Below are positions 20,732 to 50,405 of a DNA stretch of 64,000 bases, one piece after another (position 1 is the first letter of the stretch; every line of letters begins with the position of its first letter). The stretch lies in assembly GCA_039555135.1 (NCBI GenBank), contig CP114179.1, forward strand, positions 2,914,001 to 2,978,000, given 5' to 3'. The stretch comes from Phycisphaeraceae bacterium D3-23. GTDB lineage: Bacteria > Planctomycetota > Phycisphaerae > Phycisphaerales > Phycisphaeraceae. The notes under the pieces are model-generated. The model saw nothing but the letters and a program-made list of their open reading frames with translations. It did no database searches and had not been told where the DNA came from. Position numbers and translations under genes: made by a program.

Positions 20732-20832
20732 GAGTGGCCTAGTGGTCAAGTGACCTAGTGGCCGAGTGTTGCGCGGGTGACGGTGTTTGGTTCTTTACTT
20801 GGCCGCTGGACCACTCGGTCACTGGGCCACTT
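20732..20832. repeat. Word-repeat hairpin in the groES-groEL spacer
   Basis: The left arm (20732-20768) and the inverted right arm (about 20796-20832) are each four to five tandem copies of the 8-bp word AGTGRYCN. The arms match at about 26 of 37 positions and every difference is a transition. The spacer has no other content. Confidence 0.75.
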
Positions 20833-20837
20833 CCGCC

Positions 20838-21125
20838 TCAGGAAACGACTGCTAAAACTTCGTCTTCGCTGAGCATGATGAGGTCGTCGCCTTCGTGCTT
20901 GATTTCGGTGCCGCCCCACTTGTTGAGGATGACGGTGTCGCCCTTCTTGACGGTGAAGGGGGCGCGTTCGCCGTTGTCGAGGATCTTGCCGGTGCCGACG
21001 GCGATGACCTTGGCTTCCTGCGGCTTCTCTTTGGCGGACTCGGGGAGGTAGAGTCCCGAGGCGGTCTTGGTTTCGGCTTCGACGCGCTTGACGAGGATCT
21101 TGTCGCCGAGGGGTTTGATGTTCAT
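20838..21125 (-). CDS. groES: Co-chaperonin GroES (10 kDa)
   Basis: A protein of 95 residues, the full GroES length. It has [15 protein letters not shown] at the start, the mobile loop [10 protein letters not shown] that docks on GroEL and KVIAVGTGK followed by [13 protein letters not shown]. It is the first gene of the operon. An AAAGGAACC ribosome site precedes the ATG. It caps the GroEL ring during folding. Confidence 0.97.
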
Positions 21126-21955: not shown

Positions 21956-21986
21956 TACCAGACGCTACGCGAACTCAGCGTCGGCG
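21956..21986 (-). repeat. REP element of the RAYT family, solitary copy
   Basis: This 31-bp element, read on the minus strand, starts CGCCGACGCTGAGTTCGCG and ends AGCGTCTGGTA. It is nearly identical to the copy at 43235-43265 next to the transposase 21 kb away, and lies six bases after the bioA stop. The 21802-21955 gap is otherwise G-rich non-coding sequence. Confidence 0.85.
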
Positions 21987-21992
21987 TGGGGG

Positions 21993-23519
21993 TCAGAAAT
22001 CCCAATCGAGCAGGGTCTGGACGACCTGGTCGAGGAGTTCTTCGAGGACGCTGTGGGGCGTCGCGGGGATGGGCATGAGGACGAGGACGTCGCCGAGGGG
22101 GCGGATGATGAGGCCTTGGGTCCGCAGGTGATCGCAGATGGCGTAGCCGGTGCGTTTGGAGAAGTCGAAGGGGGCGGCGGAGCCGTCGGGTTGGCGTGTG
22201 CCCAGCTCGATGCCGGTCATGAGCCCGCGTTGGCGGATGTCGAGGATGTGCGGGTGGCCGCGCAGCGCGTCGAGCTTGGTGCGGATGAGGTCGGCGCTTG
22301 CGTTGATGTGCGTGAGCAGGTTGGGGCTGTCGTGGGTTGGTTCACCGAAGAGGTCGAGGGAGGCGAGGCCTGCGGCGCAGGCGAGTGGGTTGCCGGTGTA
22401 GGTGTGGCCGTGGAAGAGGGTCTTCTTTTCGTGGAGCTCGCCGGTGAAGGCGTGTTCGATCGCGTCGGTGGTGACGGTCGCGGCGAGGGGGAGGTAGCCG
22501 GCGGAGATGCCTTTGGCGAGGCAGAGGATGTCGGGGCCGTGGAACCCGTCGGTTTCGTTTGGCCGGTCGAGTTCGTGCTCGAAGGCGAACATCGATCCGG
22601 TGCGTCCGAAGCCCACAGCCACCTCGTCGCAGATGAGCAGGACGTTGTGCTTGCGCGCGAGCCGGCCCACGGCGTTGAGGAAGCCCGCGGGCTGGCAGAC
22701 CATGCCGGCGGCGCCCTGCATGACGGGCTCGATGACGATGGCGGCGGTGGTGTCGGCGTGATGTTGGAGGTGATGTTCGAGTGCGGTGATGGAGTGGTCG
22801 AGGAGTTGTTGCTGGAGGTTGGGGTCTTCGGAGGGCCACTTTCCCACAGATGAAATCTGTGGGCTTCGTGGGGGTTTGTGTTGCGCGATTGCTTCCGGGG
22901 GTCTTAGCGCATCGGGGGCGGGGAAGGTGTCGATGTCGAAGACCATGGAGACGAAGGGCTTGTGGAAGAGCGGGCTGTAGCCGACGGACATGGAGCCGAC
23001 GGTGTCGCCGTGGTACGCGCCTTCGAGGCCGAGGAAGCGGTTTTTCTCGGGTTTCCCGTGGTGGTACCAGTAGCCCACGGCCATCTTGAACGCGGCCTCG
23101 ACGGCGGTCGCGCCGGCGTCGGAGAGAAACACTTTGTTGAGCAGGTGGGGCGTGGGCGAGGTGGCGCGGACCTGCCCATCCTTGGGGTACGGTCTGGGTT
23201 GGCGTCGGTTGATGCACTCGACGAGTTTTGCGGTGAACTCGATGGCGGGCGGGTTGGTCAGGCCGAGCAGCGTCGAGTGCGCGACCTTGTCGAGTTGATC
23301 GCGCACGGCCGCGTCGATCATGGGGTGGCGGTGGCCGTGGATGTTGCACCAGAGCGACGATGTGCCGTCGATGTAGCGGTTGCCCTCCGTGTCGAAGAGG
23401 TAGGGCCCGTCGCCGCGTTCGATCACCAGCGGCGGCGTTTCGCGCCACTGTTTCATCGGGGTGAACGGGTGCCAGAGGTGGGCGTGGTCGAGTTGTTGCA
23501 GGGTGCCGGTCGTGTGCAT
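21993..23519 (-). CDS. bioA: Adenosylmethionine-8-amino-7-oxononanoate aminotransferase
   Basis: A protein of 508 residues; BioA is usually about 430. It opens with LWHPFTPMKQW, the BioA signature, and has SDAGATAVEAAFKMA, the ICDEVAVGFGRTG block before the PLP site and the PLP Lys in LAKGISAGYLPLAA. It makes 7,8-diaminononanoate in biotin synthesis. The extra length sits mainly near residues 205-245, where a palindromic repeat is inserted in frame (about residues 219-226). No other biotin gene is in the window. It is divergent from the GT2 gene with 41 bp between starts. Confidence 0.93.
   Translation of the reverse strand: MHTTGTLQQLDHAHLWHPFTPMKQWRETPPLVIERGDGPYLFDTEGNRYIDGTSSLWCNIHGHRHPMIDAAVRDQLDKVAHSTLLGLTNPPAIEFTAKLVECINRRQPRPYPKDGQVRATSPTPHLLNKVFLSDAGATAVEAAFKMAVGYWYHHGKPEKNRFLGLEGAYHGDTVGSMSVGYSPLFHKPFVSMVFDIDTFPAPDALRPPEAIAQHKPPRSPQISSVGKWPSEDPNLQQQLLDHSITALEHHLQHHADTTAAIVIEPVMQGAAGMVCQPAGFLNAVGRLARKHNVLLICDEVAVGFGRTGSMFAFEHELDRPNETDGFHGPDILCLAKGISAGYLPLAATVTTDAIEHAFTGELHEKKTLFHGHTYTGNPLACAAGLASLDLFGEPTHDSPNLLTHINASADLIRTKLDALRGHPHILDIRQRGLMTGIELGTRQPDGSAAPFDFSKRTGYAICDHLRTQGLIIRPLGDVLVLMPIPATPHSVLEELLDQVVQTLLDWDF
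22843..22863. repeat. CCCACAGAT palindrome inside bioA
   Basis: CCCACAGA at 22843-22850 pairs with TCTGTGGG at 22856-22863. The element continues GGGCTTC outward, like the copy at 50385. It keeps the bioA reading frame and encodes roughly PQISSVG. Confidence 0.85.
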
Positions 23520-24266: not shown

Positions 24267-24287
24267 CCCACGGATTTTATCCGTGGG
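24267..24287. repeat. CCCACGGAT palindrome, intergenic copy
   Basis: CCCACGGAT at 24267-24275 pairs with ATCCGTGGG at 24279-24287 with a three-base loop, a variant of the repeat inside bioA. A compensating A-to-G and T-to-C pair distinguishes it from the bioA and 50385 copies. It lies 17 bp after the GT2 stop. Confidence 0.78.
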
Positions 24288-42641: not shown

Positions 42642-42678
42642 CGCCGACGCTGAGGAGTCCGCGACGAAGCGTCTGGTA
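42642..42678 (+). repeat. REP element upstream of the RAYT gene
   Basis: A 37-bp copy starting CGCCGACGCTGAGGAGTCC and ending AGCGTCTGGTA lies 11 bp before the transposase ATG. GACGCT and AGCGTC form the outer stem. Confidence 0.88.
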
Positions 42679-42688
42679 AAGTGCCGCC

Positions 42689-43225
42689 ATGCCGGGCCCG
42701 GGCAAAGATTGGTACCACCTCATTTTCAACACGCGCGGCAGTTGGCTGCCCGGCGACCCGCGCGGGTTCCGGTCACGCAACCACCGCAAACACAGCGACG
42801 GCGATTACAATAGCCCGCCACCCGCCGGGCAGCACGCGGGGCTGCACAAGCTGATCCGAGGCAAGAGCAAGCCGGCCGTCACCCTGCCCGCCGATCTGTT
42901 CGAGACGATCGGCCAAGCGGCACTGGATAAGTCGGCGTCACAAGGGCACCGCATTTTGGCCATCGCGGTCGATGCCCATCACGTGCATGTCTTGGCCGAG
43001 TTGCCGGATGATCGTCTAGCGGTGAAACGCATCGTCGGGTCGTGGAAGCAGCGTGCTTCGCACAAGGTGCGTGAACGGTTACCGGGCGAGGTCTGGTCGA
43101 AGAGCTGTGATCCAGTACAGGTCAAGGACCCGGTGCATCATCGACAGGTGTTTGAGTACATCCCGGCGCATGCCCAACAAGGCGCGTGGGTGTGGTCGTA
43201 CAAGGAGGATGCCGAGCATGAATAG
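42689..43225 (+). CDS. REP-associated tyrosine transposase (RAYT, Y1/HUH type)
   Basis: A protein of 178 residues. It has the HUH pair HVH (about 98-100) in VDAHHVHVLAEL, a preceding GHRILAIAV strand and a C-terminal Tyr in FEYIPAHAQQGAWVW (about 157), the counterpart of the YIxxNPxRAG motif of RAYTs. Such enzymes cleave and join single-stranded DNA at REP hairpins. The gene is bracketed by three copies of one REP, and another lies 21 kb away, which identifies the likely substrate. It is a domesticated single-copy gene rather than an insertion sequence with ends. Confidence 0.88.
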   Translation: MPGPGKDWYHLIFNTRGSWLPGDPRGFRSRNHRKHSDGDYNSPPPAGQHAGLHKLIRGKSKPAVTLPADLFETIGQAALDKSASQGHRILAIAVDAHHVHVLAELPDDRLAVKRIVGSWKQRASHKVRERLPGEVWSKSCDPVQVKDPVHHRQVFEYIPAHAQQGAWVWSYKEDAEHE

Positions 43226-43230
43226 CCGAG

Positions 43231-43346
43231 GGCGTACCAGACGCTTCGCGGACTCAGCGTCGGCGTGCAACGATTCGCGCTTTGGATACAGATGCCGCGC
43301 CCCACGCCGACGCTGAGGAGTCCGCGACGAAGCGTCTGGTACGCCC
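43231..43346. repeat. REPIN: two inverted REP copies after the RAYT gene
   Basis: A 31-bp copy in minus orientation (43235-43265) and a 37-bp copy in plus orientation (43305-43341) face each other across 39 bp, with outer GGGCG/CGCCC ends. The longer copy has two extra 3-base pieces inside the hairpin. It sits 5 bp after the transposase stop and 13 bp before the next gene's end. Confidence 0.9.
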
Positions 43347-44123: not shown

Positions 44124-47100
44124 ATGGCCTTCTTCAAGAAATCCAAGCCCGCCCCCGCCCCCGGAACGACGACACCGACCCAACCCGCACCTGAGCGCAG
44201 CGAAGGTGCGGGCCGATCCGGCGGCAACCCCGATATCTTCCAGATCGGCCAACAGCTCCTCGACGTCGCGCGCAAGCACCCGGACGCCAAGGGCGTCAAG
44301 GACAAGCTCGCCGACTGGGCGATGCAGGACGAGGCGTTCAAGGTCCAGCTCTTCCGCTTTGTCGATGTTTTCCCGCGGCTTGGTACGCCGGAGCAGGTGC
44401 ACCAACACCTGGTCGAGTACCTCAGCAACCCACCGGCCCCCGGCATGCCCGACCCGCAACTCCCGCCAGGGCTGGGGCTTGGTCTGAAGGCCGGCGGCAT
44501 CATGAAAGGTACGCTCGCCAAAACAATGGCCTCCCAGATCACCGGCATGGGCGAAAAGTTTATCGCCGGCGAAGACGCCGCCACCGCCATCCCCGACCTC
44601 CGCAAGCTCTGGAAGCGAGACATCGCCTTCTCCGTCGACCTGCTCGGCGAGGCGTGTGTCAGCGAAGCCGAAGCGGCCGTGTACCGCGAACGCTACATGG
44701 ACCTCATCGTCGGCGTCGCCGAAGAAGTGAAGTCGTGGGACGCCAACCCGCAGCTCGAGACCGACCACCTCGGCCCGATCCCCCGCGCGAACGTCTCGAT
44801 CAAAGTCTCATCCCTCGTCGCAAAGTTCGAGCCGCTCGACTTCAAGGGTTCTGTCGAGCGTTGCTACGAATCGTTGAAGCCGCTGCTCGAAGAAGCCGGG
44901 CGGCGCAATGTGCTGATCAACTTCGATGTCGAGCAGAGCGAGCTCAAGGAACTCAACCTCGCGCTGTTCATGCGCTGCTGCGAGAACATCGACTTCGAGG
45001 CCGGGCTCGCGATGCAGGCCTACCTCAAGTCCGGCGACGACGACGCCCAGCGCGTCATCGACTGGGCGAAAAAGACCGGCCGCGAAGTCACCGTCCGCCT
45101 GGTCAAAGGTGCCTACTGGGACGCCGAGGTCATCAGCGCCCAGGAGCACGGCTGGCCCATCCCGGTCTGGACCACCAAGGCCGACTCCGACGCCTGCTTC
45201 GAACGCATGGCCGCACGATTCGTCGAGCACACCCCCCGGAACAAGGGCGAGGGCGGCGTCAAGCTCGCGCTGGGCTCGCACAACCTCCGCTCGATCGCGT
45301 CTGTTCTGCACGAACTCGACCGGCACAACCTCCCGCACAGCGCGCTCGAGCTCCAGATGCTCTACGGCATGGGCAACGGGCCCAAGCAGGCCGCGCTCAC
45401 CAAAAACCTCCGCCTCCGCGAGTACATCCCCGTCGGCGAGATGATCCCCGGCATGGCGTACCTCGTCCGCCGGCTCCTCGAAAACACGTCCAACGAGTCG
45501 TGGCTGATGAAGGGGTTTGATAAGGACACCTCGGCCGAGGAGCTGCTCGCCAGCCCGCACCGGGCGGAAGGGGCCGAGGGGTCGAGGGGCCAAGGGGCCA
45601 GTGATGAGGCGTATGACCTCGAACTGATCCCAGGCGTTCCGGGGGTCGGCGACGGGTCGGGCTTCTTCACCGAACCCTTCCGCGACTTCTCGGTGAAGGA
45701 ACAGCGCGATGCGTTTGCCGCGGCGATTGATAAGGCCGAGGTCCCGCAGGTTGCCAACGACGGCACCGTCGAGCAGGCGTCGGACATGGTCGGCAGCGCA
45801 CTCGCCGCGTTCCCCAAGTGGCGCGACCGCGACCCCAAGGACCGCGCGAACATGCTCATCGAGGCCGCGGACCTGATGCGGCAGCGGCGTGATGAGCTGT
45901 CGGGCATCATCATCAAAGAAGCCGGCAAGCCCTGGAAAGAGGCGGACGCGGATGTCTGCGAAGCGATCGACTTCTGCGACTACTACGCCCGCCTCGCCCC
46001 CGGCATGGCCGCGCCCAAGAAGCTCGGCGACTTCATCGGCGAAGACAACCGCATCGCCTACGAGCCGCGCGGCGTCGCGGTCGTTATCAGCCCGTGGAAC
46101 TTCCCGCTGGCGATCGCGACGGGCATGACCGCGGCCGCGCTCGTCACCGGCAACACCGCCGTCGTCAAGCCCGCCGAGCAGACCCCCGGCATCGCCCAGG
46201 TCATGGCCGAGATCTTCTGGCAGGCGGGCATCCCCAAGGACGTTTTGCACTTCCTCCCCGCACCCGGAGAGACGGTTGGCGCAGCGCTCGTCCGCGACCC
46301 ACGCATCGCGCTGATCGCCTTCACCGGATCGAAAGCGGTTGGGCTCGACATCATCCAGGCCGCCGGCGTGACCCCCGAGACCCAGCCGCACGTCAAGCAG
46401 GTCATCTGCGAGATGGGCGGGAAGAACGCGGTGATTGTCGACAGCTCCGCCGACCTCGACGAGGCCGTGCTCGGCGTCCGCTACTCCGCGTTCGGGTTCT
46501 CCGGCCAGAAGTGCTCCGCCTGCTCGCGCATCATCGTCCTCGACGACGTCTACGACGAGTTCACCCGCCGCTTCGTCGAATCCACCAAGTCCTTGAGCGT
46601 CGGCGACCCGATCCACCCCGGCACGGATGTCGGCACGGTCATCGACCCCGAAGCCCACGACAAGATCATGAGCTACGTCGAGATCGGCAGCCAGGAAGGC
46701 AAGCTCGAACTCGCGATGCAGGGCGATGTGAAAGACGCCTGGGGCAAGCCCATCGTCGGGCCGCACATCGTCAGCGGGATCACGCAAGCCGACCGCCTCG
46801 CCTGCGAAGAAGTCTTCGGCCCGGTCGTCGCGCTGATCCGTGTGAAGTCGTTCGACGAGGCGCTCAAGGTCGCCAACGCCACGCCGTACCGCCTGACCGG
46901 CGGCATCTTCACCCGCACGCCCAGCCACCTCGAACGCGCAAGAGTCGAGTTCCGCGTCGGCAACCTGTACCTGAACCGTGGGTGTACAGGCGCGTTGGTC
47001 GGCCGACAACCCTTCGGCGGCGGCGGGATGTCCGGCGTCGGCTCCAAGGCCGGCGGCGACCAGTACCTCTACCAGTTCGTCGAGCCAAGGTGCGTCACCG

Positions 47101-50384: not shown

Positions 50385-50405
50385 CCCACAGATGGAATCT
50401 GTGGG
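50385..50405. repeat. CCCACAGAT palindrome, copy near the RND operon
   Basis: CCCACAGAT at 50385-50393 pairs with ATCTGTGGG at 50397-50405, followed by the GGGCTTC extension also present at the bioA copy. It lies 26 bp after the permease stop. Confidence 0.85.

Follow-up and report, generated by a model that had tools for sequence, protein, structure and literature searches.

Among the systems described so far, the closest to the one reported here is that of RAYT transposases and their REP hairpins. For the E. coli enzyme, TnpA_REP, one study indicates that a bulge in the middle of the REP stem is needed, and that swaps of the upper stem and of the loop are tolerated (PMC8266576). REPs that occur as singlets are, according to another study, usually decaying remnants of REPINs (PMC8049555). 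REPs tagged with GTAG or CGTC have already been reported, Planctomycetes included, and no transposase was found for the CGTC repeats (PMC3733652); since that report exists, the presence of REPs in Planctomycetes is not new. How RAYTs recognise REPs, and whether the REP or the REPIN is the mobile unit, are questions on which the present system bears.

We examined a stretch of 64,000 nt (the window) from Phycisphaeraceae bacterium D3-23, whose 4.62-Mb genome (G000) forms a single contig. The following features were identified in the window:

21956..21986, minus strand: dispersed single REP, short form, adjoining bioA, identified by the core pattern
42642..42678, plus strand: REP, long form (two G.A modules), 37 nt, upstream of the transposase gene
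42689..43225, plus strand: HUH/Y1 transposase, RAYT-like, 178 aa, with H98-V-H100 and Y157, identified by its ORF, by Pfam Y1_Tnp and by a fold match
43235..43265, minus strand: REP, short form (one G.A module), 31 nt, left arm of the inverted pair
43305..43341, plus strand: REP, long form, 37 nt, right arm of the inverted pair
43235..43341, no strand assigned: REPIN made of the short and the long REP, inverted, with outer ends TACC/GGTA, supported by folding of the 107-nt strand

The original prediction, that three hairpins of 31–37 bp bracket the gene and that two of them form an inverted pair directly after it, was borne out at these coordinates, with the REP core pattern occurring four times in the window against 0.00 expected (100 shuffles). 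A gene flanked by REPs and by an inverted pair is one of the features by which RAYTs are known. The two long copies at the gene are identical over 38 nt, and the 107-nt strand of the REPIN (43235..43341) folds at -42.3 kcal/mol (z -8.13). The fourth copy had been placed beside bioA and was indeed found there, 6 bases from a minus-strand ORF that ends at 21993 and matches TIGR00508 with 438.8 bits (cut-off 405).

Other repeats were also seen in the window. A REP of a second family (CCGCACCTGAGC..AAGGTGCGG) lies at 44185-44211, where it is in frame with a PutA-like gene and falls in its N-terminal linker; this stretch is absent from the genomes G076, G088 and G139, and a diverged stretch takes its place in G026. 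Three perfect hairpins (CCCAC..GTGGG) that belong to the other RAYT clade lie at 22843-22863, 24267-24287 and 50385-50405; the first agrees with the flanks of the RAYT at 2538025. BLAST matched a stretch of units resembling AGTGGCC, at 20733-20838, to about a dozen other places in the D3-23 genome.

The 178-aa protein scores 26.2 bits with Pfam Y1_Tnp (cut-off 23), while its match to NCBIfam NF047646 (REP_Tyr_transpos) reaches 24.4 bits and stays below the curated cut-off of 80. The Y1 HUH domain with two histidines and one catalytic tyrosine, by which RAYTs are recognised, is present, and H98, H100 and Y157 are invariant columns in an alignment of 30 sequences. The AlphaFold model, made with 30 sequences, has a mean pLDDT of 87.3, and its structural neighbours (Foldseek, VIA-align) are ISDra2, IS608 and TnpA_REP (4er8). 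IS608 TnpA aligned to the model with a Z of 12.3 over 105 residues and the REP-bound TnpA_REP 4er8 with a Z of 11.7 over 125 residues, the latter being tied with the other neighbours; by sequence, matches in the PDB were weak (E 0.13 for 4er8). The HuH motif is HHVH and the tyrosine motif is Y157-I-P-A-H (YIPAHA), which is not the Y..NP motif of RAYT class 2; a histidine at Y+4 was found in 78 of 100 homologues. Other Y1 proteins of the D3-23 genome have the motifs YLLANP and YIHYNP, and a Y1 transposase domain with YIRNNP was noticed within an open frame of >1000 codons (L036, G000:C1:1599988).

The short REP reads CC-GACGCT-GA-G-TCCG-C-GA-AGCGTC-T-GG, in which the outer stem contains a bulged T and is followed by a G.A/A.G step, a single G-C pair and a closing tetraloop. 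Copies of two lengths had been predicted, the longer with two extra 3-base pieces, and these pieces proved to be an added GAG and an added CGA: the long REP has GAG twice and CGA twice, and the added pieces face each other and give a second G.A step. The hairpin thus exists in two lengths because its stem holds either one or two G.A steps. Sheared tandem G.A pairing has a Py-GA-Pu context. In DNA folding, the short form adopts the outer stem with its bulge as the most favourable structure; in the long form this stem appears in the centroid only, and a different structure is slightly lower in energy. Single hairpins did not fold better than their shuffles (z 0.01 for the long and -1.19 for the short form).

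The two hairpin sizes recur beside related genes and in a second REP family of the D3-23 genome, as long tips of the type GGAG..CGAC are found on other stems at the homologous loci L042, L043, L121 and L138, and also in the CCGnACCT family (1268824). Pairs of a short and a long hairpin were noticed by eye at L043, L064, L065 and L069, in addition to that of the window.

When hairpins with any of 144 non-pairing 2x2 combinations were counted beside 100 homologues, GA/GA was found at 36 loci and leads the list; TC/TC, as the complement of GA/GA, necessarily also gives 36, and the next combination gives 5. Far flanks, taken about 1 kb off where the locus reached that far, gave GA/GA at 2 loci, and dinucleotide-shuffled flanks gave G.A hairpins at a mean of 1.4 and a maximum of 5 of 100 loci. 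The figure of 36 comes from a finder that replaced an earlier one, which overlooked stems containing a mismatch. The G.A step is not universal across the homologues: the remaining 64 had no tandem G.A hairpin in this flank scan (65 if the random-looking match at L253 is dropped), and none was found in the 37 rows of the large sister clade, of which one gene in the D3-23 genome carries a perfect hairpin instead.

Of the 87 family hairpins (35 loci, L253 left out), 86 have a foot, NA[AC]G, ahead of the stem, and the foot GT[AG]G of RAYT class 2 is not the one found here. The hairpin finder ignored the foot, but its last G helped to choose between stems of 8 and 9 bp and is not independent. In the present system the foot is AACG or CACG. 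Similarity of the lower stem and similarity of the protein are weakly linked (Mantel r 0.17, with 31 of 5000 permutations as high).

The tip of the hairpin is far more variable than its base in the nearest relative. On either side of the gene of ZRK34 (G025), which has 66 % identity to ours, stand hairpins that keep the same lower stem and flanks and have four different tips, and the 74 copies of that genome carry 53 distinct tips, which are 7-27 nt long. In 52 of these 53 the first pair is G-C, where the arm pattern fixed the G but not its partner, and the second pair is C-G in 23, G-C in 23, A-T in 2, T-A in 1 and unpaired in 4. At least two Watson-Crick pairs, counted from the outside, are formed by 91 % of the distinct ZRK34 tips against 14 % of shuffled ones (0 of 2000 shuffles reach the observed value), and in the genome G010, with 37 copies and 18 distinct tips, all 18 form at least two. 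In the D3-23 genome a single tip dominates, which suggests a recent spread from one source. In our literature search, made largely without subscription journals, neither tandem G.A REPs nor hypervariable REP tips were the subject of any paper found.

Overall, 36-38 REP copies were identified in the D3-23 genome. Exact arms are present in 15; with up to 3 mismatches there are 31 short copies (0 for the reversed-pattern control) and 3 long ones, two of which are at the transposase gene. Two more copies have other tips (984785 and 1035519), and two were seen solely as BLAST matches (894899 and 985561). Conserved-column counts over 30 short copies are low by two, with L016 and L029 wrongly oriented. 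As is typical for the REPs of a RAYT, the same repeats are dispersed mainly between genes, where 28 of the 32 copies with flanks fall (heuristic gene calls).

The original prediction of a RAYT with its own REP and REPIN set is upheld for the dispersed REPs and not for the REPIN set. Since none of the 29 dispersed copies tested in the D3-23 genome has a partner within 170 bp, the pair at the transposase gene is the only REPIN found in this genome, and the dispersed inverted pairs that make up a REPIN population were not seen among these 29. The partner test allowed tips of 4-21 nt and would miss a partner with a longer tip; the best candidate had 9 mismatches in 27 arm positions, where the control minimum was 7 (116 stretches). 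Likewise, no partner was found for the 28 copies tested among the 70 dispersed ones of ZRK34, in which one copy tested at the gene does have a partner. In G010, 12 of the 30 copies tested (of 37) score as pairs. An identical 27-nt core is shared by 10 of 31 copies in the D3-23 genome, one at the gene, and the nine dispersed ones are all among the partnerless singletons.

The arm pattern of the REP is present in 9 of 201 genomes of the order. There are 25 arm-pattern copies in D3-23, 74 in ZRK34, 37 in G010 and 9 in G046, single matches in G098 and G115, and 1, 2, 3 and 0 in the four genus mates (1 in G026 and 0 in G139); the reversed-pattern control gave one match in all. More diverged REP copies appear in the genus mates by BLAST, and no homologue of the transposase gene above 45 % identity was found in them. 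The expectation that the repeat should be rarer in relatives without the RAYT therefore agrees with the high counts of D3-23 and ZRK34 against those of the genus mates, but it does not agree with G010 and G046, in which no close RAYT was found and the best homologues have 42 % and 44 % identity, in assemblies that are 97 % and 99 % complete. The copies of these two genomes, without a close transposase, count against a strict link between REP and gene.

Orthologous places in G026 were compared with ours. At the bioA site, G026 is without 42 nt that include the hairpin, and CCCCACGCC stands at the joint in both genomes; judged from these two sequences, the difference could be due to an insertion 3' of a target or to a deletion in G026. 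Of the places of L007, L008 and L009 only the last is clean in G026, and a single REP-free orthologous site was obtained in all. At the position of the transposase gene itself, G026 carries a 1.98-kb stretch with another gene, so no clean insertion joint of the gene was obtained; the homologue that G026 does have is of the other clade (43 % identity).

At three orthologous places (those of L001, L006 and the long copy at 1288033) a REP is present in both D3-23 and G026, as would be expected if the REPs were old, immobile and merely decaying and the enzyme had another role in the host. We consider such a history very unlikely, as 10 of 31 copies keep the identical 27-nt core, as 25 arm-pattern copies are found here against 1 in G026, and as the arms of G026 are more changed than ours in two of the three shared REPs (L001 and L006), although the reverse holds for 1288033, at which our arms are the more changed and the tips differ. 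A long REP beside what by eye resembles a tRNA gene (L260 and L322) has a counterpart at the same place in G026 with a different tip.

REP and upstream gene lie on the same strand in 20 of 29 cases in D3-23, 20 of 27 in G025 and 21 of 29 in G010. Together with the position of 28 of 32 copies between heuristically called genes, this favours an alternative in which REPs are transcript-level elements, namely processing sites or hairpins at mRNA 3' ends that are kept or spread for an RNA function, the transposase being incidental. Such an origin is very unlikely, given that no consistent T-run follows the hairpins among the copies of the D3-23 genome, that G.A hairpins stand within 250 bp of 36 of 100 homologues against a mean of 1.4 in shuffled flanks, and that copies are many in D3-23 and ZRK34 and few in the genus mates.

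The REP strand was also seen to track the negative GC skew of the flanks (24 of 29 in D3-23, 24 of 28 in G025 and 22 of 30 in G010, or 70 of 87, leaving out three D3-23 rows and one G025 row at RAYT loci, and L201). This bias may reflect the direction of genes, and no link to replication is claimed. A replication-strand bias was considered and set aside, with samples of 16 kb giving no clear two-arm skew in D3-23 and a weak one in G025.

The transposase gene had been called single-copy, which holds in that no second close copy was found in the D3-23 genome; four diverged members of the family are nevertheless present there, at 1298101 (in two frames), 1659796, 2538025 and 2619290, and they are flanked by other repeats. 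The two-frame relative (L070, G000:C1:1298101-1298617) was seen still to have hairpins on both sides. The CCGnACCT repeat, taken from 1298101, has 16 arm-pattern copies in D3-23 and 0 in the four genus mates. The gene at 2619290 is flanked by the perfect hairpin GAAGCCCAC, found at 29 places in D3-23 and at 21, 7, 6 and 4 in the genus mates, counts for which the tool scored each place on both strands.

Homologues at E<=1e-5 are present in 57 of 201 genomes of the order, D3-23 included, and 80 of 219 relatives were kept by the named scan, being mostly Planctomycetota by their titles. In a tree of 100 distinct proteins, ours groups with that of ZRK34 (100/99), and L042 and L043 come next (100/92). 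G.A-hairpin labels change 12 times on this tree against 25.7 times when shuffled (0 of 500 as low); these labels come from the earlier finder, which labelled 30 of 100 and of which L073 looks spurious.

AAAG is the left guide of IS608. That the foot includes AAAG, and that the fold matches the TnpA of IS608 and ISDra2 as well as TnpA_REP, could mean that gene and hairpins together form an ordinary IS200/IS605 insertion sequence, of which the dispersed hairpins would be post-excision ends or MITE-like derivatives, a very improbable account since no near-identical second copy of the gene was found, the relatives within the genome are diverged and have other hairpins, and several relatives have inverted pairs on both sides rather than one left and one right end.

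The gene probably encodes a domesticated single-strand transposase that works with its own family of REP hairpins, a type centred on planctomycetes. The enzyme would bind a single REP strand that has folded into a hairpin and would read in it the 5' foot NA[AC]G, the lower stem CC-GACGCT/AGCGTC-GG with its one bulged T, and the tandem G.A step; with Y157 it would break and reseal single-stranded DNA. The tip, lying beyond the G.A step, would go unread and could change freely provided that it still formed a hairpin, and the two hairpin lengths would correspond to one or two three-base modules (GAG opposite CGA), each made of a G.A step and a G-C pair. In the D3-23 genome, REPs would have spread as single units, with the inverted pair kept only beside the gene. 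Binding, cleavage, transposition and the substrate strand are what we infer here. The dispersal of the REPs, the G.A step, the self-complementary tips, the foot, the partnerless state of the tested copies and the one REP-free site can be read directly from the genomes compared.

A further step from this domesticated transposase is possible, although we regard it as doubtful: REPs of this clade may be two-part elements, with a constant base (foot, lower stem and tandem G.A step) that is read by the transposase and a tip, unseen by it, that is rewritten by hairpin-templated copying, which would keep the tip self-complementary and would add or remove G.A modules. The mobile unit would then be the single REP rather than the REPIN, perhaps inserted just 3' of a (C)CCACGCC target, in which case part of the flank that appears conserved would be target.

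ZRK34 and G010 amount to a natural selection experiment in which the base is constant and the tips are 53 and 18 in number. This pattern marks out the tandem G.A step and the NA[AC]G foot for a probable part in recognition. The intact singletons without partner put the view of the REPIN as the unit to a direct test outside gammaproteobacteria.

Compared with the RAYT of E. coli (TnpA_REP, group 2 / subclass 2.2), the system described here is alike in the Y1 HUH fold and in a gene flanked by REPs, and its hairpin likewise combines an internal mismatch with an upper stem open to variation. The tolerance of swaps in E. coli supports, by analogy, a reading of the REP as a constant base with a free tip. 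On the other hand, the foot is GTAG in E. coli and NA[AC]G here, the mismatch is AA-GC there and GA/GA here, the tyrosine motif is Y..NP there and Y..H here, and E. coli has three types of REP where ZRK34 and G010 have tens of tips. While singlets are usually decaying remnants in the account of PMC8049555, the dispersed copies tested here are singletons.

The class 3 TnpA_Y1 proteins of Quentin et al. 2018 (PMC6006769) are similar in being planctomycete-rich, in their conserved N-terminal extension, in a listed length of 178 (as given in Table 1), and in atypical hairpins without GTRG that can reach a high copy number. Their motifs, NHVH and YV[VI][AENY]EQ, differ from HHVH and YIPAHA here, and their foot is CnGA, as compared with NA[AC]G at the outer stem of our hairpins. 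CTGA does precede the tip here and would fit CnGA if the tip alone were counted as the hairpin, so that a link to class 3 is possible.

The tagged REPs of PMC3733652 are similarly short tagged palindromes, with dimers of differing loop lengths described, and they differ in that neither the GTAG nor the CGTC tag is present here. With the IS200/IS605 elements IS608 and ISDra2, the fold and probably the chemistry are shared, whereas a mobile unit that carries the gene was not seen here. Taken together, the system resembles RAYT/REP but differs from it in the foot, the tyrosine motif and the NCBIfam score, and we call it a variant form because it has neither the GT[AG]G foot nor the Y..NP motif and falls below the NCBIfam cut-off.
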